A stretch of 64,000 nucleotides of DNA. Origin: Sandaracinus sp. (lineage in GTDB: Bacteria > Myxococcota_A > Polyangia > Polyangiales > Houyiibacteriaceae). Under the pieces are notes generated by a model, which saw only the letters and a list, made by a program, of their open reading frames with translations, had not been told where the DNA came from and searched no databases. This document shows, piece by piece, positions 7,840-19,525 of this stretch. The translations under genes and the position numbers were made by a program. The stretch lies in the NCBI GenBank assembly GCA_002699025.1, contig PABA01000145.1:1-64000 (forward strand). The letters run 5' to 3'. Position 1 is the stretch's first letter, and each line of letters opens with the position of its first letter.

Positions 7840-7943
7840 CGCACAGCCGCACAGCCGCACGGCCGCTCACCCGCACAGCCGCTCAGCCGCACAGCCGCAC
7901 AGCCGCACAGCCGATCAGCCGCACACTCGCTCACCCGATCAGA
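7840..7943. repeat. 13 x 8-bp minisatellite (CGCACAGC)
   Basis: Thirteen contiguous octamers, consensus CGCACAGC with variants such as CGCTCACC and CGATCAGC, fill 104 bases exactly. The last unit contains the TGA stop (minus strand) of the cupin gene at 7939-7941, so the array begins inside that gene's end and runs downstream. It lies between convergent genes. This is not CRISPR-like because the units are contiguous. Confidence 0.9.
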
Positions 7944-8658
7944 GCGCGGAGCGGAGGCCCGGCTCCGGGAGGCTGACGCTCAGCGCGAAGGACGTCTCCG
8001 CCGAGCGCACCGCATGCCAGTGGCCGCGGGGGAGGAAGAGGAGCGCGCCCGGCCTGAGGGTCCAGGTCTCGGCGCCGGGCCCGAAGGCAGCGTCCCAGCC
8101 CGCCCCCTCGCGGGGGCCCCACGCGACCTCGTCCCAGAGCCCCGCGGGCGGCTCGCCGTTCGCCTCGAGGCGCCAGCGGCGCACGCCGAAGAGCTGCAGC
8201 ACGAGCAGGCTCACGCCGTCGGCGTGGCGCGGCACCCAGGTCTCCGGGCCGTGGAGGAAGCCCGTGATGCCGGTCCCCAGCCCGCCGCCGAACCAGGCGA
8301 CGAGCGCCTCGTAGGCCTCGCGGCTCCGCCGGAAGTGACCCTCGAGGTGATCGATGCGCCACCAGTCGCCGGGCCCCGGCGCGAGGCTCCGGCGGCGCGG
8401 CGCCGGCAGGGGCTCGAAGGCGACCGGGCCGCGCGAACGAGCCCGCGCGCGGCGGACGCTCCGGCTGTAGCCCGCGAGCCACGCGCGCACGGCGCCGAGG
8501 TCGGCCGAAGGCGGCCCGACCCGGGCGAAGCGTTCGACGGCGCCCCGGACCATCAGGGGCCGCCGCTCCCGCCGCGCCCGCGAGAGCTCGGCGAGGGGGC
8601 GCGGCGCGAGGAGGGCGCGGAGCAAGGCCGCCCCCGCGCCCTCCTCCTCAGCGCACAT
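7939..8658 (-). CDS. Cupin/JmjC-type Fe(II)-dependent oxygenase of the RiPP locus
   Basis: A 239-residue protein with a JmjC/cupin-like fold, the family that includes 2-oxoglutarate-dependent hydroxylases. The metal-binding pair HxD is seen in VPRHADGVSLLVLQLFG near residue 150, and the second His in LFLPRGHWHAV near residue 212. The segment LMVRGAVERF near residue 35 matches the usual start of cupin_8 domains. It is last in a three-gene leftward operon: its start overlaps the stop of the ATP-grasp gene by 11 bases, implying translational coupling. The likely role is hydroxylation of an amino acid or peptide made by the two upstream enzymes. Product and substrate are inferred only from context. 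Confidence 0.8.
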   Translation of the reverse strand: MCAEEEGAGAALLRALLAPRPLAELSRARRERRPLMVRGAVERFARVGPPSADLGAVRAWLAGYSRSVRRARARSRGPVAFEPLPAPRRRSLAPGPGDWWRIDHLEGHFRRSREAYEALVAWFGGGLGTGITGFLHGPETWVPRHADGVSLLVLQLFGVRRWRLEANGEPPAGLWDEVAWGPREGAGWDAAFGPGAETWTLRPGALLFLPRGHWHAVRSAETSFALSVSLPEPGLRSAL

Positions 8659-9964
8659 GGATGCGGACCCGCTCGCGGACGCGACCGAGGAGCCGACGCG
8701 CCGCCTCCGCGTCCGCGCTCCGCGCCCACACCCCCGCCACGAAGGACTCCTCGACGTCGCCGCCGACCGGGCGGCCCTCCTCGGCCATGCGCCGGACGAC
8801 CCGCACGCCGGGCACGAGGAGCAGCCGCTCGAGACCCTCGACCGCCTCCAGCACGCCGCTCCGGGGGCTGAAGAGGAAGATCATCGCGTGGCGCTCGTCC
8901 GTGCGCGGCCCTCCCGGGAGCGCCGGCGTCTCGCCGAGGAGGAGCGCGAGCTCGAGCTCCGCCGAGTCCACGTCGAGGAAGGTGCGGAGCGAGTCCGTGA
9001 CGCAGCCGGCGCCGATGCGCGGGTTCACCTCGAGCAGCCGCGGCCCGCGATCGGGATCCCAGCGGAGCTCCACGTGGCAGAGCACGCGCCGCAGGCCGAG
9101 CGCCTCCACGCAGGCCGTGGCGTGCGCCTCGAGCTGCCGGAGCTCCGCCGGGGTGAAGCGCGCGGGCGGGCAGACCAGGAGGTGCTCGAGGACGGTGGCC
9201 GCGGTCTCCTCGACGTCGAGCTTGTCGTGCACGAGGAGGGGGACCACCCGATCGTCGAGGGCGAGGCACTCGACGCTGACCTCCCGGCCCGGGAGGTAGG
9301 CCTCCGCCAGCATGGAGCGCCGCGGGTCGAAGCGGCGCGCGACCCCGCCCTCCCGGACCTCGTGGGGCGCCATGCGGACGGGCGCGTGGTGCGCCCGCGG
9401 GAGCCGCTCGCAGGCCTCGCGGAACGCCGCGCGCGCCTGCTCGGCGTCGTCGCAGCGGTAGACGAGGCTCGCGCCCACGCCGGTGATCGGCTTGAGGATG
9501 CAGGGGAAGCCCACCTGCCGGGCCACCCGCTCGAGATCCGCCGGCGCCTCGACCAGCGCGAAGGGGACGTCGGGCACGCCGGCCGCGTCGAGGGCCTCGC
9601 GGGCGAGGAGCTTGTTCGTGGCGCGCCGGAGCGCGTCCCTCGAGGGCCCGGCGAGCCCCCGCTCGGCGCGGAGCGTGGCCACGTCGCCCGCGAGGAAGCC
9701 CACCTCGTGGAAGGGGCCGTAGGGACACGCGAGGGCGCGCACGGCCCAACGACGGTCGAGCTCGCCGAGCGCGGCGCGAAGCGCGGGGAGCGCCATGGAG
9801 GGGAGCTCGACGACCGCCGCGAGGCCGCTCCGATCGGTGGGCGCGGCGCCGATCGGGCAGAGGAGGATCACCTCCATGCCCCGCGCCCGGGCCGGCTCGA
9901 CGGAGGCGAGCGCCATCTCGGTCGAGACCGAGTCGACGTGGACCAGCGCCGGCGGGCGACTCAT
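8648..9964 (-). CDS. ATP-grasp carboxylate-amine ligase
   Basis: A 438-residue ATP-grasp enzyme, which forms an amide via an acyl-phosphate. It has the ATP-grasp features KPITGVGASLVYRC near residue 155, EAYLPGREVSVECLAL near 215-230 and the magnesium-binding VELRWDPDRGPRLLEVNPR near 295-315. Overall order (an N-terminal pre-ATP-grasp domain starting PALVHVDSVSTEMALA, then the grasp domain) resembles L-amino-acid ligases of the BacD/carnosine-synthase type. Its ATG overlaps the stop of the KamA-like gene by 4 bases (ATGA). In context it probably ligates the aminomutase product to a peptide side chain, terminus or another amino acid. The acceptor cannot be read from sequence. Confidence 0.88.
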   Translation of the reverse strand: MSRPPALVHVDSVSTEMALASVEPARARGMEVILLCPIGAAPTDRSGLAAVVELPSMALPALRAALGELDRRWAVRALACPYGPFHEVGFLAGDVATLRAERGLAGPSRDALRRATNKLLAREALDAAGVPDVPFALVEAPADLERVARQVGFPCILKPITGVGASLVYRCDDAEQARAAFREACERLPRAHHAPVRMAPHEVREGGVARRFDPRRSMLAEAYLPGREVSVECLALDDRVVPLLVHDKLDVEETAATVLEHLLVCPPARFTPAELRQLEAHATACVEALGLRRVLCHVELRWDPDRGPRLLEVNPRIGAGCVTDSLRTFLDVDSAELELALLLGETPALPGGPRTDERHAMIFLFSPRSGVLEAVEGLERLLLVPGVRVVRRMAEEGRPVGGDVEESFVAGVWARSADAEAARRLLGRVRERVRIHVR

Positions 9965-11088
9965 CCGTCCTCCCCGTCCGGGTAGTGGGAGACGATGCGG
10001 CCGGCCGCGTCGACCTCGTGCATCGGGGGGAGCGCCTCCGAGTCGCTGAAGGCGAGGAAGTCGACCGCGCGGTAGGGCGTCGTCGCGCGGATCCAGCGGC
10101 GCCCGGCGCGCTCGACGTGCTCGAGCTGCGCGCCGCGGCCGAGCCGGTGCTTTCCGACCGGCGTGACGTAGACGTAGTGCGGCGCCAGGGCGCCGGTGAG
10201 CGGCGCGAGCTCCTCGAGCAGGTCGAGGCCGCGCTGCACGGAGGTCCGGAAGTGCCGCGCGCCGACGACCGGCATGCAGTGGTAGAGGTAGTAGGGCGTC
10301 AGGCCGACGGCCGCGAAGGACTCGTAGAGGCGCCGGAGCGTGGCCGCGTCGTCGTTCACGCCCTTCAGCAGCGTCACCTGCGCGCGCACGACGACGCCGC
10401 GCTCGAGCAGGCGGCGGAGCGCGCGCACGTACGCCGGGTAGAGCTCGTCCGGATGGTTGATGGACACGGCGAGGGCGAGGCTTCGGCTCGCGGCCAGGTC
10501 CGCCGGGTCGAGGCGCTGGTAGGAGGCGAGCCAGTCGGCCATCGCGTCGTCGAGGAGCTCGGGGCGGAAGAGGAGGTTCCGCGTGCCGATGCGGAGCTGC
10601 CGGACGTGCGGGATGGCGGCGGCGCGGTCGAGGACGGCGCGCAGCAGCTCCGGGCGCACGAGCGGATCGCCCCCCGTGACGAGGACGATGCGGATGCGCG
10701 GATCGGCGGCGATGTAGGCGATGGCGCGGTCCACGTCCTCCGGGGTCATGGCGCGGCCGTCGCCGGCGAGCGTACGCGTCTTCTTGAAGCAGTAGCGGCA
10801 GTAGGCGCTGCAGTCGAAGTAGGGCGTCAGCACGGCGCGATCCTCGTAGATGCGCTCGAGCCCATAGATACCCCGGTTGTCCTTGCCCTCCTCGAAGGGC
10901 GTCTCCGTCCCGCCGTACTCCTCCAGCTCCTCGACCGAGGGCATGAACTGGCGCGCGACGCCCTCGGACCGGCGCATCAACCGCGTGACGTTGGCCGTGA
11001 GCTTCGCGCGAAAACGCGCCGTGACGTCGCGCCGGGTCGCCCCTCGCGCGGCGCCGCCTTCGACGACCGGCAACATCGTTCTTGACAT
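9961..11088 (-). CDS. KamA-like radical SAM aminomutase (lysine 2,3-aminomutase family)
   Basis: A 375-residue radical SAM protein of the lysine 2,3-aminomutase/EpmB family. The cluster motif is CSAYCRYC near residues 95-102 and TGGDPLVRPE follows. The PLP-lysine region reads YVYVTPVGKHRLG, where the Lys corresponds to the PGGGGK lysine of KamA, and YHCMPVVGARHFR corresponds to the conserved DxxxGxxHFR stretch. I chose the ATG at 11088 because GAGAGGA precedes it at good spacing; a GTG at 11121 is possible. The reaction is probably alpha- to beta-amino acid isomerisation, with lysine the default guess. It is first in the operon with the ATP-grasp and cupin genes. It is unlikely to serve EF-P, since neither efp nor epmA is present. 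Confidence 0.88.
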   Translation of the reverse strand: MSRTMLPVVEGGAARGATRRDVTARFRAKLTANVTRLMRRSEGVARQFMPSVEELEEYGGTETPFEEGKDNRGIYGLERIYEDRAVLTPYFDCSAYCRYCFKKTRTLAGDGRAMTPEDVDRAIAYIAADPRIRIVLVTGGDPLVRPELLRAVLDRAAAIPHVRQLRIGTRNLLFRPELLDDAMADWLASYQRLDPADLAASRSLALAVSINHPDELYPAYVRALRRLLERGVVVRAQVTLLKGVNDDAATLRRLYESFAAVGLTPYYLYHCMPVVGARHFRTSVQRGLDLLEELAPLTGALAPHYVYVTPVGKHRLGRGAQLEHVERAGRRWIRATTPYRAVDFLAFSDSEALPPMHEVDAAGRIVSHYPDGEDG

Positions 11089-11133
11089 GGAACCGTCCTC
11101 TCTCTCAGCTTGGCGAGCCACCCCGACGATTCG

Positions 11134-11176: not shown

Positions 11177-11800
11177 ATGCGTAAGTCCGTCATCGTGATC
11201 GACGACTTCTACGAGGACCCGGACGCGATCCGGGAGCTGGCCCTCCGCCAGCGCTGGACGCGCAAGGAGGGGGCCACCTATCCGGGGCGGGAGGCGATCG
11301 TCCCCGGGCGCGATTGGAGCGACGCCCGGGCGCGGCTCCGGAGCGAGATCGACGAGCCCGTCGACGGGCCGGGCGAGAAGGACCCGCCTTTCCCGCAGGG
11401 GAAGTTCCGGCTCGCGCTCGCCTCGGACGCCGAGACGCGGGTGGATCGGGTGCACGTCGATCAGCAGCGCTGGTCCGGCGTCGTCTACCTCTCCCGGGAC
11501 CAGGACTGCCGCGGTGGGCTCGCCCTCTACCGGCACCGCCCCACGGGCTCGCTGACCTGGGACGAGCGCTGGTTCATGACGCACTACGGCCACCTCTACC
11601 TGCTGCCCGACGAGCAATTCCGAGAGGGCGTTCTCGCCTTCTTTCGTGACGAAGAGCAGTTCGAGCAGATCGGCCTGATCCCCATGGCCTACAACCGCGC
11701 CATTCTGCTCATGGCGCAGGTCTTTCACGGCACGGGCGAGGTCTTCGGAGACCGCGAGGAGCGCGGTCGCCTCACCCAGCACTTCGAGTTCTACGAGTAG
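11177..11800 (+). CDS. DUF6445-like putative Fe(II)-dependent oxygenase
   Basis: A 207-residue protein starting RKSVIVIDDFYEDPDAIREL, which resembles the DUF6445 family of small putative non-haem iron oxygenases. An HxD pair (RVHVDQQRWSGVVYLS, near residue 94), GGLALYRHRPTG (near 113) and a later His in MAQVFHGTG (near 185) could form a 2-His-1-carboxylate site. ATG 11177 is preceded by GGGAGAAGAA. It is transcribed divergently from the KamA-like gene and lies inside the RiPP locus, so it probably tailors the same product. Family assignment is from motif recall and biochemical function is inferred. Confidence 0.72.
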   Translation: MRKSVIVIDDFYEDPDAIRELALRQRWTRKEGATYPGREAIVPGRDWSDARARLRSEIDEPVDGPGEKDPPFPQGKFRLALASDAETRVDRVHVDQQRWSGVVYLSRDQDCRGGLALYRHRPTGSLTWDERWFMTHYGHLYLLPDEQFREGVLAFFRDEEQFEQIGLIPMAYNRAILLMAQVFHGTGEVFGDREERGRLTQHFEFYE

Positions 11801-11885: not shown

Positions 11886-12431
11886 ATGCGCGCGCTCCGG
11901 GCCGACGACGAGGCCGCCTTCCTCGAGGCCTGCCGCGACTCGACGGCCCTGCACCACCCCTGGGTCTCGCCGCCCACGGATCGCGAAGGCTTCGCCGCCT
12001 ACCTCGCGCGGGAGAGCGCGTCCTTCCGGCTGCTCCTGGTGCGCCGCCGGGAGGACGACGCGCTGATCGGCGTCTTCAACCTCAGCCAGATCGTGCGCGG
12101 CGTCTTCCGGAGCGCCTACCTCGGCTACTACGGCTTCTCCGCGACGACGGGCCGCGGCTACATGCACGAGGGCATGACGCTCCTGGTCCATCACGCCTTC
12201 CTCACGATCGGCCTCCACCGGATCGAGGCGAACGTGCGGCCGGAGAACCGCGCCTCCATCGCCCTGGTGCGGCGCTCCGGCTTCGAGCGGGAGGGCTACT
12301 CACCGAACTACCTCTTCCTCGACGGCGCCTGGCGCGACCACGAGCGCTGGGCGATCCGCCGCGAGATCTGGCGACCCAGCGAGGACGTCGAGGTCCTCGC
12401 CGCTCCCGAGGAGCCCGCCAGCGGGCCATAG
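11886..12431 (+). CDS. GNAT N-acyltransferase (RimJ/RimL type)
   Basis: A 181-residue GNAT protein that would transfer an acetyl group from acetyl-CoA to an amine, possibly an N-terminus. Family features are FLEACRDSTALHHPWVSPP, LIGVFNLSQIVRG, GYYGFSATTGRGYMHEGM (acetyl-CoA loop, near residues 80-97) and the IEANVRPENRASIALVRRSGF motif of the RimJ branch. The reading frame continues upstream of ATG 11886 through sequence resembling the usual strand 1 (LVRGPRCAMRAL) without an obvious start codon, so the true start may be non-canonical. Its last 132 bases overlap the convergent tfuA gene. It could acetylate the mature peptide or protect the host. Confidence 0.8.
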   Translation: MRALRADDEAAFLEACRDSTALHHPWVSPPTDREGFAAYLARESASFRLLLVRRREDDALIGVFNLSQIVRGVFRSAYLGYYGFSATTGRGYMHEGMTLLVHHAFLTIGLHRIEANVRPENRASIALVRRSGFEREGYSPNYLFLDGAWRDHERWAIRREIWRPSEDVEVLAAPEEPASGP

Positions 12432-13085
12432 GGCGTCGCTCCCCGTGACGAGGGAGAGCGCGAGCGCGGCGCCCCGGCGCTTCGGATCGTGCCGATGCGT
12501 CTGGAGCTCCCGGGCCAGGCGGCGCGCGCCCTCGAGGCTCGCCCCGGCCTCCCGCCAGCGCTCCAGGCAGCGGCCCGGCGTGCGCTCGAGGAAGTGGAGC
12601 GCCCGCGCCTCGGCGAAGCGCGCCCGCGCCTCGGCCTCCGCGAGGCGCCCGGCCTCCAGCTCGCGCCCGAGGGTCGCGCGCAGGTGCACGAGCGAGACCG
12701 TGAGCTCGCGCGCGCAGGCCTCGTCGTAGCCGACGGCGACCTCGCCGTCCGAGGTGAGCGTGCCGAGCCGATAGCCCGCGTGGACGGCGCCGACGCCCAC
12801 CATGCCCTCGCTCCAGCACTCGCTGGCCCGGAGCGCGCCCATGCTCGCCGCGCCGACCACCGACCAGCCGGCCCGGAGCAGCGCCCGGCATTCGGTGGGT
12901 GTGACGGCGAGGTGACTCGAGAAGAGCCCGTCGAGGATCAGCACGCGCCCCGGGGCGCGCTCGAGCAGGCGGTCCGCGTCCCCGCGCCGCATCGGCGGGC
13001 GCCACTCGGCGTCCACGCCGCGCCGGAGCGAGCGCGGGAGCGAGGGCCCGGCGAAGACGACCGGCCGCTCAGCCGCGCCGAACAT
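12300..13085 (-). CDS. tfuA: TfuA-like protein (YcaO partner)
   Basis: A 261-residue TfuA domain protein, the partner of YcaO enzymes in peptide thioamidation (thioviridamide-type RiPPs, methyl-coenzyme M reductase). The family core is easy to see: VVFAGPSLPR (residues 9-18), PPMRRGDADRLL, VLILDGLFSSHLAVTPTEC, then GAASMGALRASECWSEGM and VGAVHAGYRLG followed by the acidic DGEVAVGYDE. The ATG at 13085 lies inside the 3' end of ycaO (17-base overlap). In known thioamidation systems TfuA is thought to mobilise or deliver sulfide; no sulfurtransferase is visible here. Its 3' end overlaps the convergent GNAT gene. The C-terminal 60 residues are less conserved-looking. Confidence 0.92.
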   Translation of the reverse strand: MFGAAERPVVFAGPSLPRSLRRGVDAEWRPPMRRGDADRLLERAPGRVLILDGLFSSHLAVTPTECRALLRAGWSVVGAASMGALRASECWSEGMVGVGAVHAGYRLGTLTSDGEVAVGYDEACARELTVSLVHLRATLGRELEAGRLAEAEARARFAEARALHFLERTPGRCLERWREAGASLEGARRLARELQTHRHDPKRRGAALALSLVTGSDALWPAGGLLGSGEDLDVLAGSPDLAADRPALVVAPGAVEEEVVR

Positions 13086-14331
13086 CGCGCCCCCGCGCCG
13101 GGTCGACGAAGCGGTCCCAGAGGCCGGGCACGCAGACGTGCGCGACGGCGAAGCCCCCCGGGCCGGTCGAGAGGTCGGTGACGACGGCCCCCTCCGCGGC
13201 GGCGCCGAGCCGGTCCCGGAGCAGCCGGAGTGCTTCGCCGGCCGTGGGCGGAGGCGCGGGGGCCGGCGCCTCGAGGAGCGTCGAGGGAGGCAGGCGGCCC
13301 ACGAGCGCCTCCACCTCGCGGAAGCGGGCCTCGACGGTCTGCGGGTCGTCGGCCCAGCTCGAGGCGTGGCGCTCCAGGTCCTCGCGGCTGCCCTGGATGG
13401 CGACGGCGCGGCTCTGCACGAGCTCCCGGAGCGCGCGGAGGAGCGCGGCGGCGGGGTCGAGGTGGGCGCCCTGACCGGAGACGGCGAGGTGGTGCTGGCC
13501 GGCGCCGCGATCGAGCGCGAAGACCTTCACGACCGGCACACCGGAGCCCTGCGACTCGTGGCACCGCAGCCCGTGGCACCGCAGCTCGTGGCACCGCAGC
13601 TCGAGACAGAGCAGCTCGACGCCCTCCCCCTCGAGCCGCGCCGAGAGCAAGGCCGCCTCCCCGCCGAGGCCCGAGGGCGGGATCCGCGCCGGCCAGACGC
13701 CCTGGCCGAGCCGGGAGGTCACGTGGCGCTCGACCACCTCGAGGAGCCCGTGGAAGGTCGCCTCGGCGAGCCCGCTGCCCGCCGCCAGCCCGCTCGTCGA
13801 AGGCCGCACGGGCCGCGCCAGACCGGGCGGCGGGTGATAGGGGAAGAGCACCTCGGCCGCGGGCACCCAGGTCGGCGCGCCGTCCACGAGGCGCTGGCCG
13901 CGGACCCACTCGAGGGGCGCCGCCGGCGCCTCGACCCCCAGCTCGCGTGGCGAGACCAGGCGCTCTCCGGCCGCCTCGAGCGCGGCGACCGGCGCGCACC
14001 TCCGCTCCCGCGGGGCCGCCGCGGCGTGCCGCTCCACCGCCTCCATCAGCGCCGCCGCCCCCGCCTCCTCCCGCGTGCGCCCACAGCCCTGGACGCTCGT
14101 GTTCTGACCGGCGGGCGCGCCGGGCCGGACGGCGGCCACGACCGGGACCCCGAGCCGATCGAGATCGGTCAGCTCGGCCAGGCGCGTGACGCCGAGCTCG
14201 CGCCGCCTCGCCCAGGCGAGCGGGCCGACCTCGGCGAGGGAGCGCGCGCGCCAACCGGCGCCGAGCCGCGCATCCGCGCCCGGGAGCTCGAAGGCGCCGG
14301 GCGGGCGCGCGCGGTGGCCTTCAGCGCGCAT
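13069..14331 (-). CDS. ycaO: YcaO-domain ATP-dependent cyclodehydratase/thioamidase
   Basis: A 420-residue YcaO protein, which phosphorylates a peptide amide backbone with ATP so that an azoline or, with TfuA, a thioamide can form. Visible family elements are AGQNTSVQGCGRTREEAGAA leading into ALMEAVERHAA (the Mg/ATP acidic motif, about residues 75-108), then GLAAGSGLAEATFHGLLEVVERHV (about 175-198). The C-terminus (VDPARGRDVRRG) lacks the PxPxP end typical of azoline-forming YcaOs. The segment LRCHELRCHGLRCHESQG holds three LRCHE/G-type tandem heptads, an unusual Cys/His-rich insertion that could bind metal. Its start overlaps the carbamoyltransferase stop by 11 bases. Confidence 0.93.
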   Translation of the reverse strand: MRAEGHRARPPGAFELPGADARLGAGWRARSLAEVGPLAWARRRELGVTRLAELTDLDRLGVPVVAAVRPGAPAGQNTSVQGCGRTREEAGAAALMEAVERHAAAAPRERRCAPVAALEAAGERLVSPRELGVEAPAAPLEWVRGQRLVDGAPTWVPAAEVLFPYHPPPGLARPVRPSTSGLAAGSGLAEATFHGLLEVVERHVTSRLGQGVWPARIPPSGLGGEAALLSARLEGEGVELLCLELRCHELRCHGLRCHESQGSGVPVVKVFALDRGAGQHHLAVSGQGAHLDPAAALLRALRELVQSRAVAIQGSREDLERHASSWADDPQTVEARFREVEALVGRLPPSTLLEAPAPAPPPTAGEALRLLRDRLGAAAEGAVVTDLSTGPGGFAVAHVCVPGLWDRFVDPARGRDVRRG

Positions 14332-17300
14332 CGGCCACCGCGTTGAGATAGCGCTGCCCGTGGAGCGCCGTCAGCCAGGAGAGGATCATCGAGCGGCGCG
14401 CCTCGGCCGCTGGCGACGCGGCGAGGCCCTCCGCCACCGTGCCCCCGCGCTCGCACACGCGGAGCACCGCGGCGACCTCGGCGGGCACGACCTGGGCCGC
14501 GCGACCGCTCCCCTGCAGCGTGCACGCCTCGGCGCCCCCGCCGAGCTCCGAGCGGAGCCGCAGCCCCGGCGCGAGGCGGAGGCGCGCGTCCGGGCCGATC
14601 TCCGCGGGGGCGCGCGGCCGCACCAGCCGATCCTCGAGGACCAGCGCGTCGAGGCCGCTCCCGAGGAGCACGTCGAGGGCCTCGAGGGGCGTCTCCACGA
14701 GCGGCTCGCCGCGCCGGTTGAAGGAGGTGTTGAGGAGGACCGGCACGCCGATGCGCTCCCCGACGAGGTGGAGGAGCCGGTGCCAGCGGGGGTGGCTCCG
14801 GGCGGTGACGGTCTGCACGCGCGCCGTCCCGTCCACGTGGCAGACGGCGCCGAGGAGCGGGCGCGCCTCCGGGCGCACGCGGACGACGCGCAGCATGTAG
14901 GGGGACGCGCCGTCGAGCTCGAAGTAGCGCGCGGCGTGCTCGAGCGGGACGACGGGGGCGAAGGGGCGGAAGTCCTCCCGGTACTTCACCTGACGGTTCA
15001 CGCGGCGCCAGGTCGAGGCGTCGCGCGGATCGGCGAGGATGGAGCGGTGCCCGAGGGCGCGCGGGCCGAGCTCGGCGCGCCCCTCGAACCAGCCGACGAT
15101 GGCGCCGCCCGCGATCCGCTCGGCCACGTCCGCCAGGTCGACGTCCGAGACCTCCACGCGCTCCGCCCGGGCCCGCAGCGCGAGCTCCACGTCCGCCGGC
15201 CCGTAGCGGTGGCCGAGGCCGTCGTCCGGGGCGGTGGCCGGGGCCGGCGCGTGGACGCCGAGCGCGTGGCTCGCCGCGAGGGCCGCGCCGACGGCCGTGC
15301 CCCCGTCGTGGCTCGCCGGGAAGAAGAAGCAGCGCTCGGCGCCCCGGGCCTCGACCAGGCGCTGGTTGAAGCAGCTGTTCAGGGCGAGCCCGCCCGTGAA
15401 GACGATGGCCTCGAGGTCCGTGGCGCGCCGCGCCCGCTCGACGCGCTGGAGGAGCGCCCGCTCGAAGTCGGCCTGGACGCGGGCGGCGAGGTCGCGGTGC
15501 GCCATCGGATCGGCGGGCGGATCCCGCCGCGCCTCGCGGAGCTTCCACGCCGTGGTGAAGCGGAGCAGCCCGTCCGGGCCCTCCTCGAGCAGGCTCGGCC
15601 CGTAGCGCTCGGCGTCGCCGTGGGGGGCGAGCCCCATGAGCTTCCCCGAGGCGTGCCAGGAGCCGAAGACGTAGGCGCTGACGGCCGCGTAGGTCTCGCC
15701 GAGGGAGCTCGAGCCGCAGCGCACGTTGAAGGAGTCGGCGGTCTCGCGGGAGAGGAGGCGAGGCGGCTCCCCGCGGCGAAAGGCGTAGGCGGAGAGGACG
15801 TGGAGCGCCGGGCGGCGCGGGGGGACGGCGGCGAGGTAGTCGCGGAGCGCCGGGCCCCGGAGGACGAGGTCGTCCGCGCCGACCGTGCTCCCGCCCGAGC
15901 CATCCGCGACGACGACGAGCGCGGCGTCGAAGGGGGAGGCGGCGAAGGCCGCCCAGGCGTGCGCGAGGTGGTGGGAGACGAAGAAGCTCCGCGGGCCGAG
16001 CGGATCGAAGAGCGCGAAGCCCGCCGTGGCGAGCGGCTGGGAGAGGCCGACCCAGCCCGGGAGGAGCGGCTGGCTGTTGAAGGCGAAGGCGTCGACGTCC
16101 TCGGGCCGGAGGCCGGCGGAGTCGAGGCAGTAGCGGGCCGCCTCCTCGGCGCCGAGGGCGCCCTCGCCGTCGTGCTTGACGCGGGTCAGGCGCTCGAGGG
16201 GGATCGCCACCTCGGGCCGGCCGTCCCGGAGGAGGCACGCCGACCCGTCGTGGCTCGCGGCGAGCCCGAGCACGCGCAGCGGGCGGCGCCGATCTCGCGA
16301 CCGAGGGGAGGCGGAGGCGCGGGAGGCAGCCGACGGCTGAGCAGGCGCGGAGGCGCGGGAGGACTCCGGCGCGCCGGGAGAGTCCGATGCGTGCGCGAGC
16401 TCCGCGCCGGATGCCACGAGGGCGACGCTCCGGGCCGATCCCCCGAGGGTGAGCTCCACGAGGAGCGTCTCGCCGGGCTCGGCCTCGACGTCGAGCGCCT
16501 CCCAGCCGCGCGCCGCGCCTTCGGCCCGTAGCCTGCCGTCGCCGTCGCGCACACGGAGCGCGACCTCCGGCCCCGCGTCGACCCAGCCGAGCGCCCGCCC
16601 GTGGCGGCGCACGCAGGCGACGACCGTGACCCGTCGATCGCGCGCGTGCAGAGCGAAGCGGCGCGTCTCGCCGAGCGCCGGCCGCGCCTCGCTCCCGGCG
16701 AAGGGGCGGAGGGGGCCGTCGACGAGCTCGCGCCCGGCCACGCCGTCCAGCGGGCGCGCCTGGGCCAGGAGCGCGGCGCGGACGAGGGCCGGCGTCGGCT
16801 CGAGCCCGGCCTCCAGGAGGGCCTGGCAGACGCGCGCGGCGAGGCCGGTCGCCACGGCCACCGCGCCGGAGGTCCCGTCGAGCGCGCCGAGCCCACCGCC
16901 CGGCATGCGCGCGGCCCAGCGCCGCTCCGCGACGAAGAGCTCCGGCTTGCGGGGCGCCGCGTCGGCGCCGCACCAGGAGACGGGACGCCCGGCCTCGTCG
17001 CAGACCCCGACGGCGAGGACCGCCTCGCAGCTCGCCGGGAAGCGGAGGCGACCGGGGCCGTCGTGCCCGGCCGCCGCGAGGGTCGCGACGGCATGCGGGG
17101 CTGCGTCCGCCCACTGCGTCACCAGCGCCCGCCCGACGTGCGCCAGGTGGTGGTCCTCCGGCCCGGACCAGGCGAGGCCGAGCACGTGCGCGCGCCCGTG
17201 GGTCTCCCCGAGCGCGCGGATGCGCTCGCCGATCCCCTCGACGGTCATGCCCGCGTGGGAGGCGTGGACGAGCTCCGCGTCGGGCGCCAAGCCGAGCGGC

Positions 17301-17533
17301 CCGCCCGGCCGGCCCGCGGCCTCCTCGCCCTCGCCGACGATCGACGCGACCCGCAGCGCGTGGCTGCGCGGGGCCTCTCCCTCGCGCGCGTCCTCCACGC
17401 GGGCGCGCCCGCCGAAGGACCAGCCCGCGGGGAGGTCGTCCGCGAGGAGGAGCACGCGCGCGCCCCGGCCGGTGCGCGACCGGAGCGGGAAGGCCTCGCG
17501 GGGGGCCACGGTCGACGTCTCGCGCTCAGCCAC
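14321..17533 (-). CDS. Tripartite fusion: subtilisin-like domain, carbamoyltransferase, RRE-like domain
   Basis: A 1070-residue protein with three parts. Residues 1 to about 300 resemble a peptidase S8 fold: VLLLADD (candidate Asp32/33), SHALRVASIV (His58) and LDGTSGAVAVATG (Ser222). The oxyanion Asn position reads AAGHDG (His157), so activity is uncertain. From about 412 to 970 it is a NodU/CmcH O-carbamoyltransferase: LGLAASHDGSACLL, SHHLAHAWAAF (metal site, about 520), FTGGLALNSCFNQ, FEGRAELGPRALGHRSI and NTSFNRRGEPLVETP. Residues about 978-1065 (RLRLAPGLRLRSELGGG ... VVPAEVAAVLRVCERGGTVAE) have the pattern of a PqqD/RRE winged helix, the leader-binding module of RiPP enzymes. The GTG start overlaps the MNIO stop by 8 bases. 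I know of no described protein with this architecture. Confidence 0.88.
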   Translation of the reverse strand: MAERETSTVAPREAFPLRSRTGRGARVLLLADDLPAGWSFGGRARVEDAREGEAPRSHALRVASIVGEGEEAAGRPGGPLGLAPDAELVHASHAGMTVEGIGERIRALGETHGRAHVLGLAWSGPEDHHLAHVGRALVTQWADAAPHAVATLAAAGHDGPGRLRFPASCEAVLAVGVCDEAGRPVSWCGADAAPRKPELFVAERRWAARMPGGGLGALDGTSGAVAVATGLAARVCQALLEAGLEPTPALVRAALLAQARPLDGVAGRELVDGPLRPFAGSEARPALGETRRFALHARDRRVTVVACVRRHGRALGWVDAGPEVALRVRDGDGRLRAEGAARGWEALDVEAEPGETLLVELTLGGSARSVALVASGAELAHASDSPGAPESSRASAPAQPSAASRASASPRSRDRRRPLRVLGLAASHDGSACLLRDGRPEVAIPLERLTRVKHDGEGALGAEEAARYCLDSAGLRPEDVDAFAFNSQPLLPGWVGLSQPLATAGFALFDPLGPRSFFVSHHLAHAWAAFAASPFDAALVVVADGSGGSTVGADDLVLRGPALRDYLAAVPPRRPALHVLSAYAFRRGEPPRLLSRETADSFNVRCGSSSLGETYAAVSAYVFGSWHASGKLMGLAPHGDAERYGPSLLEEGPDGLLRFTTAWKLREARRDPPADPMAHRDLAARVQADFERALLQRVERARRATDLEAIVFTGGLALNSCFNQRLVEARGAERCFFFPASHDGGTAVGAALAASHALGVHAPAPATAPDDGLGHRYGPADVELALRARAERVEVSDVDLADVAERIAGGAIVGWFEGRAELGPRALGHRSILADPRDASTWRRVNRQVKYREDFRPFAPVVPLEHAARYFELDGASPYMLRVVRVRPEARPLLGAVCHVDGTARVQTVTARSHPRWHRLLHLVGERIGVPVLLNTSFNRRGEPLVETPLEALDVLLGSGLDALVLEDRLVRPRAPAEIGPDARLRLAPGLRLRSELGGGAEACTLQGSGRAAQVVPAEVAAVLRVCERGGTVAEGLAASPAAEARRSMILSWLTALHGQRYLNAVADAR

Positions 17534-18386
17534 GGGCGCCCTCGCGAAGCCGGGGGGCCCAGCCGGCGCGCTCCAGGGCCGCCTCGATGCGCGCGAGGTC
17601 CCGCTCGATGGCCTCCCGATCGAGGCCCACGCCGATCTCGTAGGTCACGGCGCGGAGCCGGGGCGCGCGGGCGGCGACCCGCTCCACGAGCTCGAGGACC
17701 TCCGGCAGGATCGGGTCGCTGTGGCTGTCCACGTAGCGCCGCGGGTCCTCCTCGGAGACGCGCCCGCCCGCGACGTGGAGCTCGACCACGGGCTCCATGG
17801 GGAAGGCGTCGGCGACGGCGAGCGGGTCGGCCCCGCTGCAGAGCGCGTAGGAGTAGACGTGGCTGAGGTCGGCCACGAGGTCGCAGCCGGTGCGGCTGGC
17901 GAGCGCCCGGAAGTAGGCGCCGAGCGAGAGCTCCCCGGCGGCGATGGTGAAGGAGGGGTTCTCGGCGGCGAAGGGGACGCTCCCCCGCCGGAGCATCTCG
18001 CGGACGCCGGCGGCGACGTGCTCGACGCCCTCGCGCGAGAGGAGGGGCGCCGTGAAGTAGGGGAGCGCCCGCGGGCCGAGCGACCAGATCCCGACGTCCT
18101 CGCAGCTCCAGAGGGCCCCGAGGGCGCGGGAGATCCCGTCGAGCTCGGCGAAGCGGCGGAGGTCCGGCCCGCCTGGGTCCGCTGGGGCGACGGCCGAGAG
18201 GTGATGCACGATCGGCAGGGGGCCCGCGCAATCGCGGCGGAAGGCGTGGGCCTCCTCCTCGCTGCGGAGGCTGACGATGGAGAGGTGCGAGAGCGCCGGC
18301 CGCAGCCCCGCGCAGAATCCCACGAGGCCCCCCGGGTACTCGTCCGCGTACTGGGCGTCGAGGCCCACGCCGACCCGGGGGCTCAC
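17526..18386 (-). CDS. DUF692/MNIO multinuclear iron oxidase
   Basis: A 286-residue TIM-barrel protein of the DUF692 (MNIO) family, which uses two or three irons to modify RiPP precursors, as in MbnB (methanobactin), TglH and ApyH. Likely metal ligands are all present: VHHLSAV (about residue 80), AENPSF (about 140), ADLSHVYS (about 170), VELHVAGG (about 200), VDSHSDPI (about 218) and TYEIGVG (about 257). The last motif has Gly where many members have ErD. GTG start with a 4-base GTGA overlap to the stop of the partner gene, so expression is coupled. The substrate is presumably the adjacent 70-residue peptides; since these lack Cys, chemistry must differ from MbnB or TglH. Confidence 0.9.
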   Translation of the reverse strand: MSPRVGVGLDAQYADEYPGGLVGFCAGLRPALSHLSIVSLRSEEEAHAFRRDCAGPLPIVHHLSAVAPADPGGPDLRRFAELDGISRALGALWSCEDVGIWSLGPRALPYFTAPLLSREGVEHVAAGVREMLRRGSVPFAAENPSFTIAAGELSLGAYFRALASRTGCDLVADLSHVYSYALCSGADPLAVADAFPMEPVVELHVAGGRVSEEDPRRYVDSHSDPILPEVLELVERVAARAPRLRAVTYEIGVGLDREAIERDLARIEAALERAGWAPRLREGARG

Positions 18387-19108
18387 GCGCCGACCTCCAG
18401 CGCCGCGACGCGCACCACGCCGTCGCCGTCGACCGTGGCCACCGTGAGCGAGGTGCCTTCGCCGACCGGGCTGCCCGGCTCGAAGCCCCCGCGCTCGACC
18501 CGGCGCCAGGCCTCGACCAGGCGCCAGCCGCTGAGGAGGGTCTCGGTGGCGCGCGCCTCGGGGAGCGCGAGGGCGGGGCCGCGGGCGGGCCAGGGGCTCG
18601 GCAGGGTGGGCCTATTGGCCAGCGCCGAGAGCACGGCGGCGAGGCGCACCAGGAGGCGCGTCGGCTCGCTCAGGGTCGGGCGCGACACCAGGTGCAGGCA
18701 GAAGCTCTCGCCGATGGTGCGCCCGGCGCCCTCCCAGAAGGCCGGCGCGTCGAGGAAGCTCGCCAGGGCGGCGTCGATCTCGGCGTCCGGGACGAGCCGC
18801 GGCAGGAGCGGGAGCTCGCGCGCGAGGTGCCAGCGGAGCTGCCTCCGCCGGGCGCGCTGCTCGAGGCCGAGGAGCCTCGGGTCCAGGTCGCGAAGGAGCG
18901 CGAGGGTCGCCCGCGGGAGGGCGTCGTCGGTCGCCGCGAGGGCGAAGGCGGTGGCGGCGGCCGCGGGGGAGTAGAGCAGCCGCAGGAAGAGCGTGGAGCG
19001 CGCGGCGTGGTCGTCGCGGCGCAACAGCTCGCGGAGGCGGAGCGTGGTCGGGCCCGGATCCTCGACGGGATCCGGGCCCGGCCCCGGCAGCGACGTCAGT
19101 CCTGCCAT
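18383..19108 (-). CDS. MNIO partner protein (leader-binding type, inferred)
   Basis: A 241-residue alanine/leucine/arginine-rich, mostly alpha-helical protein lying directly between the precursor peptides and the MNIO gene, the position occupied by the MbnC/TglI/BufC-type partners that dock the leader. No catalytic motif is visible. A C-terminal beta-like segment (SLTVATVDGDGVVRVAALEV) could be part of a docking domain. Its ATG lies within the 3' end of the second precursor gene (13-base overlap, the ATG being read from GAATGG), so it is translationally coupled to the peptide. The sequence itself is not clearly recognisable, so the role is assigned from position. Confidence 0.7.
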   Translation of the reverse strand: MAGLTSLPGPGPDPVEDPGPTTLRLRELLRRDDHAARSTLFLRLLYSPAAAATAFALAATDDALPRATLALLRDLDPRLLGLEQRARRRQLRWHLARELPLLPRLVPDAEIDAALASFLDAPAFWEGAGRTIGESFCLHLVSRPTLSEPTRLLVRLAAVLSALANRPTLPSPWPARGPALALPEARATETLLSGWRLVEAWRRVERGGFEPGSPVGEGTSLTVATVDGDGVVRVAALEVGA

Positions 19109-19308
19109 TCCTTCGCCGACGAGACGACGCGAGCCGACAGCTCGGTGAGGGCGCCGACGTTGAGGTTGACCTGCTTCAGGTAGTCCTCGGCGTGATCCCG
19201 GGCGAGCAGGCGGATCATCGCCTCCCGGAACTCGCGATCCTCATCGATCAGCGCGGTGATCTCCTCGAAGGAGATTCCCTTCAGCTTCTTGCTTCCCACG
19301 AGCACCAT
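19096..19308 (-). CDS. RiPP precursor peptide, copy 2
   Basis: A 70-residue peptide identical to copy 1 at 45 of 70 aligned positions without gaps. The leader is charged and helical (SKKLKGISFEE, EDREFREAMI, DHAEDYLKQVN) and the conserved tail is LSARVVSSAKEWQD. No Cys and no Thr in the tail; Ser58, Ser63, Ser64, Lys66, Trp68 and C-terminal Asp70 are the candidate modification sites. Immediately followed by, and overlapping, the MNIO partner gene. The ribosome-binding AGGAG (19316-19320) is built from the Gln-Glu codons and stop of copy 1. No known leader family matched confidently; the EDREFREA stretch is vaguely Nif11-like. Confidence 0.85.
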   Translation of the reverse strand: MVLVGSKKLKGISFEEITALIDEDREFREAMIRLLARDHAEDYLKQVNLNVGALTELSARVVSSAKEWQD

Positions 19309-19312
19309 CGGC

Positions 19313-19525
19313 CTACTCCTGCCATTCCTTGTTCGAGGACACGACCCGCGCGGAGAGCCCCGCGAGGACGCGCGCGTTCACGTTGACCTCACCGAGGTAG
19401 TCCTCGGCGTGATCCTTCGCGATGTGCTTGATCAGGGCCTCGCGGAACTCCCGATCCTCCGCGATGACCTCTGCGAGATCCTCAAAACTCAATCCCTTGA
19501 GCTTCTTACTCAATGCTTCCACCAT
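19313..19525 (-). CDS. RiPP precursor peptide, copy 1 (operon leader gene)
   Basis: A 70-residue peptide, first gene of the leftward operon, 4 bases before copy 2. The leader contains LSKKLKGLSFEDL, EDREFREALI and DHAEDYLGEVNVN, and the tail reads LSARVVSSNKEWQE. Compared with copy 2, positions 58-64 and 66-69 are invariant while 65 (Asn/Ala) and 70 (Glu/Asp) vary, and the stretch 51-56 just before the tail is divergent, as expected for a leader-core junction. A strong GGGAGGT ribosome site lies 6 bases before the ATG. No cysteine occurs. It is divergent from the Eis-like gene, so its promoter must lie in the 68-bp gap or within that gene. Confidence 0.88.
   Translation of the reverse strand: MVEALSKKLKGLSFEDLAEVIAEDREFREALIKHIAKDHAEDYLGEVNVNARVLAGLSARVVSSNKEWQE

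Follow-up and report, generated by a model that had tools for sequence, protein, structure and literature searches.

The window, meaning the whole 64-kb stretch of DNA analysed, harbors a new, divergent member of the very recently described std pathway, and its central gene encodes a fusion enzyme (F) that, with a probability of roughly 0.87, is orthologous to StdF and belongs to a RiPP pathway of the std type. The std cluster of Streptomyces thermodiastaticus JCM 4840 was reconstituted by Hebron et al. in a preprint of May 2026, which is both the sole match of a literature search on the precursor motif and the one source of functional evidence for std chemistry (PMC13174530). There, YcaO-TfuA thioamidates Asn, StdF turns the motif Lys into homocitrulline, the precursor loses its EWQE follower by cleavage, MS/MS and NMR locate the carbamoyl group on the Lys side chain, and the homocitrulline is hydroxylated twice by the partner-MNIO pair, so that thioamide formation, carbamoylation, EWQE loss and bis-hydroxylation have all been obtained in vitro for std orthologs (PMC13174530). 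The same source reports 97 StdA orthologs in Pseudomonadota, Actinomycetota and Myxococcota.

Of the components of a std-type cluster, the window contains an SNKEWQE precursor, a partner and MNIO, an S8-carbamoyltransferase fusion, and YcaO-TfuA (Table 1). Seven genes lie on one strand in the order two precursors, MNIO partner, MNIO, F, YcaO and TfuA, with neighboring genes overlapping by 4-17 bases except for a 4-base gap between the precursors. The cluster of S. thermodiastaticus agrees with the window in fusion order, gene order, precursor end and the His at the oxyanion site, with identities of 47% for F, 46% for MNIO, 40% for YcaO and 45% for TfuA. Relative to the Streptomyces std MNIOs in general, the window MNIO is 45-48% identical and its likely metal ligands are invariant, while the MNIO partner is 34-36% identical in alignment and has no Pfam or NCBIfam match. 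In the leader of precursor A1, D24, R28, A30, I32, A36, H39 and A40 are common to Streptomyces StdA-type leaders. Precursor A2 is 64% identical to A1 and has Ala at the site where the std YcaO-TfuA thioamidates Asn; it may yield a second product or serve as a decoy. Lys-Glu-Trp-Gln is kept in both precursors, along with Asp32, His58 and Ser222 of F. The window differs from the std cluster in having two precursors, a DUF6445 gene and a neighboring KamA/ATP-grasp/JmjC operon, and in that no StdI-type MFS transporter was found in it. Two of these differences count against the std assignment: A2 breaks the conserved motif at the very residue that is thioamidated, and no homolog of the MFS permease StdI was found in the 64-kb window at 1e-3. 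MFS genes do occur at the StdI position in Dickeya and Pseudomonas.

Table 1. Features of the std-type locus and its surroundings (window positions)
Feature	Position	Strand	Evidence
JmjC-type oxygenase, cluster membership uncertain	7939..8658	-	Pfam JmjC_2 1.7e-11
ATP-grasp amino-acid ligase with LAL_C2 domain, cluster membership uncertain	8648..9964	-	Pfam
KamA-like radical SAM aminomutase, cluster membership uncertain	9961..11121	-	NCBIfam AblA_like_2 2.9e-55
DUF6445 protein	11177..11800	+	Pfam 1.4e-18
GNAT N-acetyltransferase, convergent with TfuA	11886..12431	+	Pfam 8.2e-20
TfuA, StdH ortholog	12300..13085	-	Pfam 5.9e-30; 45-48% identical
YcaO, StdG ortholog	13069..14331	-	Pfam 3.2e-54; 40-43% identical to Streptomyces std YcaO
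Fusion enzyme F, probable StdF ortholog	14321..17533	-	Pfam; 47% identical to StdF
F: C-terminal winged-helix domain, residues 976-1070, GdmN/NovN auxiliary-domain type	14324..14608	-	model, fold and profile comparison
F: NodU/CmcH-type carbamoyltransferase (Kae1-like and YrdC-like), about residues 418-972	14618..16282	-	Pfam, motifs
F: beta-sandwich, about residues 286-384	16382..16678	-	AlphaFold2 strands 290-383; Foldseek alignments to 3afg and KP-43 reach over it
F: S8 domain, about residues 20-265	16739..17476	-	Pfam, alignment, fold comparison, PagA profile alignment
F: S8 site codons	His58 17360-17362; His157 17063-17065; Ser222 16868-16870	-	
MNIO (PF05114), StdE ortholog	17526..18386	-	Pfam 1.1e-20
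MNIO partner, StdD ortholog	18383..19108	-	tblastn to Streptomyces partner genes down to 6.6e-19
Precursor A2, 70 aa, ends SAKEWQD (Asn to Ala, last Glu to Asp)	19096..19308	-	
Precursor A1, 70 aa, ends SNKEWQE	19313..19525	-	exact std core/follower motif

The initial annotation had proposed a fusion of a subtilisin-like domain, a carbamoyltransferase and an RRE-like domain, and the reading frame (14321-17533, 1070 aa) stands at exactly these coordinates, to which the minus strand can now be added; its GTG start overlaps the stop codon of the upstream MNIO gene. In F, an S8 domain is followed by a beta-sandwich, an arrangement also seen in subtilases that carry a C-terminal beta domain, then by a complete NodU/CmcH carbamoyltransferase and lastly by a winged-helix domain. 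Pfam matches comprise Peptidase_S8 (1.6e-9, residues 50-260), Carbam_trans_N (5.7e-22) and Carbam_trans_C (1.7e-64), and the NCBIfam matches to NodU (2.1e-34) and the PatA/PatG-type protease (2.9e-11) both fall far under the curated cut-offs. The motifs SHHLAHA, DGSGG and GPRALGHRS are in place, which together with the Pfam matches upholds the earlier claim that the carbamoyltransferase is complete. The same annotation had this enzyme carbamoylate the core, and for a StdF ortholog in a RiPP operon this is most likely correct.

If the step order follows the reconstituted Streptomyces pathway, YcaO-TfuA would thioamidate the backbone one residue ahead of the core Lys, at Asn in A1 and at Ala in A2. 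Next, the carbamoyltransferase part of F would convert carbamoyl phosphate and ATP to carbamoyl-AMP and transfer the carbamoyl group to the Lys side chain to give homocitrulline, whereupon the S8 domain would cut after this residue and free EWQE (or EWQD). The partner-MNIO pair would afterwards hydroxylate the beta and gamma carbons of the homocitrulline, by then the C-terminal residue, with the leader presumably held by the partner protein, and the C-terminal winged-helix domain more likely pairs two F molecules, as in GdmN. The window enzymes would thereby perform, by analogy, the same steps as their std orthologs, and may also act on the Ala variant A2.

The initial annotation took the C-terminal domain for a PqqD-like, leader-binding RRE. 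Folded alone from a single sequence, the C-terminal 104 residues of F gave a model (pLDDT 84.4, pTM 0.75) with four strands, helices and a last strand, containing the three-strand, three-helix winged helix of the RRE fold. The model matches PqqD (5sxy; Z 9.2, 89 residues, 2.5 A), lasso-peptide RREs (Z 8.1-8.8), GdmN (Z 10.5, 101 residues, VIA) and NovN (Z 9.3), with VIA Z differences under or near 1 counting as ties and the fold alone not decisive. The predicted resemblance to PqqD was recovered, with GdmN the slightly better match. At the sequence level, the F profile aligns into the C-terminal auxiliary domain of GdmN (to position 1014) and NovN (to 995), with the hairpin LxPGxRL standing opposite FRPVTRL; profile alignments to TobZ and 7xb6 end at 929, before the auxiliary domain. 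F thus has the C-terminal auxiliary domain of about 100 residues after the YrdC-like domain that marks the GdmN/NovN subclade of class III carbamoyltransferases. In GdmN, this domain, notably the hairpin T586-L609, forms the homodimer (PMC9633730). The class III O-carbamoyltransferases GdmN and NovN resemble F in the carbamoyltransferase core and in the position of the auxiliary domain, but they lack an S8 domain and act on ansamycin and novobiocin rather than peptides. Because both position and sequence match GdmN/NovN, this part of F is best understood as a dimerisation domain inherited with the carbamoyltransferase and RRE-like in fold, for which a role in dimer formation as in GdmN appears the more likely.

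The window domain matches no RRE-family sequence profile; hhalign of its profile against 20 PqqD-like sequences, one of which is probably a wrong-strand translation, was not significant (p 0.02-0.1), and an HMM search against PDB sequences returned nothing meaningful. Leader binding by this domain is thus not supported, and the combination envisaged in the initial annotation, with this domain binding the leader and the S8 domain removing it, is unlikely, although several observations favor it beyond the fold matches to PqqD and lasso RREs (Z 8.1-9.2). The corresponding domain of Piscinibacter gummiphilus has weak matches to three RRE-type families (ApyI 2.1e-4, PaaA-like_N 0.0019, PqqD 0.015), which keep peptide binding open, carbamoyltransferases are listed among RRE fusions by the authors of RRE-Finder (PMC12710340), and the S8 domain is nearest in sequence to the cyanobactin proteases PagA/PatA. 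These are countered by the equivalent domain in GdmN and NovN, small-molecule enzymes that handle no leader, by the non-significant comparison with PqqD sequences, by the loss of both follower and protease in Piscinibacter, and by the preprint, which assigns the RRE to StdD, the separate MNIO partner, and locates the StdF cut at the C-terminal end of the precursor (PMC13174530).

The N-terminal part of F has a subtilase fold, as the initial annotation predicted: a model built from three sequences and of middling confidence (mean pLDDT 63, pTM 0.70) matches subtilases at best with 9.1e-14 in Foldseek and reaches VIA Z scores of 18.7 to subtilisin and 19.4 to site-1 protease. The proposed triad Asp32-His58-Ser222 is likewise sustained, since these residues and His157 occupy invariant columns in an alignment of window F with its S. 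eurythermus and Dickeya orthologs, and the triad is common to F of the window, three Streptomyces, Dickeya and Pseudomonas. In a profile search, the segment carrying the oxyanion site and the catalytic Ser aligns to the cyanobactin protease PagA (1.7e-15). The PagA/PatA/PatG proteases, which give the best sequence match for this part of F and are RiPP proteases too, differ from it in having Asn at the oxyanion site and no carbamoyltransferase. PatA-type enzymes work on the leader side. Window F lacks the oxyanion-hole Asn of competent S8 proteases, His157 standing opposite the Asn of PagA (GHDG versus GNDG), and all six triad-keeping fusions, StdF included, have Gly-His where PagA has Gly-Asn. 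The earlier reading of residue 157 was correct, but because StdF also has His, this residue is a trait of the group and no sign of inactivity.

By analogy with StdF, it is most likely the C-terminal follower rather than the leader that the S8 domain takes off, contrary to the leader cleavage first suggested, as the StdF reaction removes the C-terminal EWQE (PMC13174530). In the preprint itself the S8 domain is the presumed cutter, its active site being left for further study, and the accessible part describes no active-site mutant of this domain (PMC13174530); the S8 part of F is therefore the putative cutter. A related cluster on a plasmid of P. gummiphilus (NZ_CP136338.1), of which the literature searched held no description, shares with the window an SNK precursor, partner, MNIO, F, TfuA, DUF6445 and GNAT. 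Here, F and YcaO form one 1438-aa frame (L083:9218-13534) with a degenerate S8 domain, in which the nucleophile Gly-Thr-Ser has become Leu-Ala-Gln and the catalytic His is lost; the annotated start lies about 980 bases further downstream and would remove the S8 region. The precursor ends in SNKARQKPW, keeping the core SNK with ARQKPW instead of EWQE. Because the catalytic His and Ser and the EWQE were lost together, the S8 domain seems tied to the follower rather than the leader, a link that counts as a reservation about the std assignment in being one natural case. The Piscinibacter cluster is also flanked by an ABC exporter with the N-terminal C39-type peptidase sequence NDCGPA (L083:1032-3704), a candidate leader peptidase. 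That His157 makes the S8 domain of window F a dead scaffold, with the follower trimmed by another protease, is very unlikely: the replaced oxyanion Asn and the genuinely degenerate Piscinibacter domain fit this idea, but the His is kept in all six fusions with Asp/His/Ser, including StdF, whose reaction removes EWQE.

Least probable of all is a carbamoyltransferase target other than the core Lys, be it a small molecule or another peptide site as in crocagin, for while NovN and GdmN, which act on small molecules, are the nearest among solved structures, and CgnI of crocagin, the other RiPP with an assigned carbamoyltransferase, stands alone (PMC10070186), the StdF product carries its carbamoyl group on the Lys side chain by MS/MS and NMR, and this Lys is invariant in every precursor found, that of Piscinibacter included. 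CgnI is RiPP-associated like F but a separate protein, as is the protease CgnD, which frees the core from the leader; a crocagin-type fusion was rejected on the ground that the two enzymes are separate (PMC10070186).

The std-type system is rare. A scan of 84,980 species genomes with a precursor-end DNA pattern recovered the S. thermodiastaticus strain of the std work together with five further genuine loci (two Streptomyces, Dickeya undicola, Pseudomonas fluorescens PfR 37 and Burkholderia TSV86), several other matches being due to chance and lacking std genes, and tblastn of plasmids added the Piscinibacter locus. Window F is 47, 45, 47, 34, 36 and 41% identical to the six complete orthologs; Burkholderia TSV86, whose locus has precursor, partner and MNIO, was omitted from this alignment, its F frame stopping after 52 codons. 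Among sampled genomes, std-type clusters occurred in 2 of 295 Streptomyces, 1 of 379 Burkholderiales and 1 of 249 Pseudomonas, all of them genomes already known to carry one, with no further clusters in these samples and none in viral contigs. The SNKEWQ precursor pattern was absent from 376 other genomes of the phylum, where none of the 29 loci of the nearest MNIOs (best 33% identical) had another std gene within about 1.5 kb on each side. On the Metabacillus plasmid pB218 (L084:8995-10761), a related carbamoyltransferase without S8 lies beside a 2OG-Fe(II) oxygenase gene at the record end.

The new elements are the second precursor with Asn replaced by Ala, a GNAT gene beside every complete cluster examined, DUF6445, and the KamA/ATP-grasp/JmjC operon. 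A homologous GNAT gene adjoins all seven complete std-type loci, and this adjacency is unlikely to arise by chance because the six genomes searched hold only one to four such homologs each. In Streptomyces, however, the gene most closely related to the window GNAT is not the cluster-adjacent one but lies elsewhere in the genome, so the GNAT genes may have been recruited independently. Two Streptomyces std clusters have GNAT and JmjC genes directly after StdI (L078:13659-15645, minus strand; likewise in L079), on which no discussion was seen in the accessible part of the preprint (PMC13174530). The DUF6445 protein, probably a 2OG/Fe oxygenase from its HxD...H pattern, is cluster-linked in the window, Pseudomonas, Burkholderia and Piscinibacter. 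The overlapping KamA/ATP-grasp/JmjC operon (7939-11121, minus strand) lies between an rseP-like gene and the std cluster and is divergent from DUF6445 across a 55-bp gap. Its KamA and ATP-grasp genes were not found at the relatives' std loci, the ATP-grasp is confined to the window genome among 115 related ones at 1e-30, and tblastn links the JmjC only weakly (8.9e-4) to its counterpart beside a Streptomyces std cluster. Elsewhere, a rhodanese-MoeB gene occurs in Pseudomonadota std-type loci and one Streptomyces locus, and a ThiS-like gene in some; the rhodanese-MoeB and ThiS/MoaD-like genes inside std-type clusters (L081:7260-8711, L082:13462-15511, L040:386-2430) plausibly supply sulfur for the thioamide. 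The 22.7-23.5 kb segment of the window is low-complexity and repeat-rich, with Arg/Ala/Ser-rich frames on both strands.

An extended pathway can be imagined, though it is rather doubtful, in which the RRE-like domain is a dimerisation module, the ATP-grasp enzyme joins a KamA-made amino acid to the dihydroxy-homocitrulline carboxylate after EWQE loss, DUF6445 and JmjC hydroxylate, and GNAT acetylates; if true, one operon would turn its Asn precursor and its Ala precursor into two end products. The finding that an apparent RRE matches the GdmN dimerisation domain calls for caution when genomes are mined by way of RREs, an approach that counts carbamoyltransferases among the RRE fusions, and the Piscinibacter ortholog offers a natural knock-out linking the S8 domain to the EWQE follower. 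The naturally occurring Asn-to-Ala substrate A2 provides a way to test the requirements of YcaO-TfuA and the carbamoyltransferase. Enzymatic homocitrulline formation in a natural-product pathway has so far been described in a single 2026 preprint, and the window locus represents a divergent second source of this chemistry.
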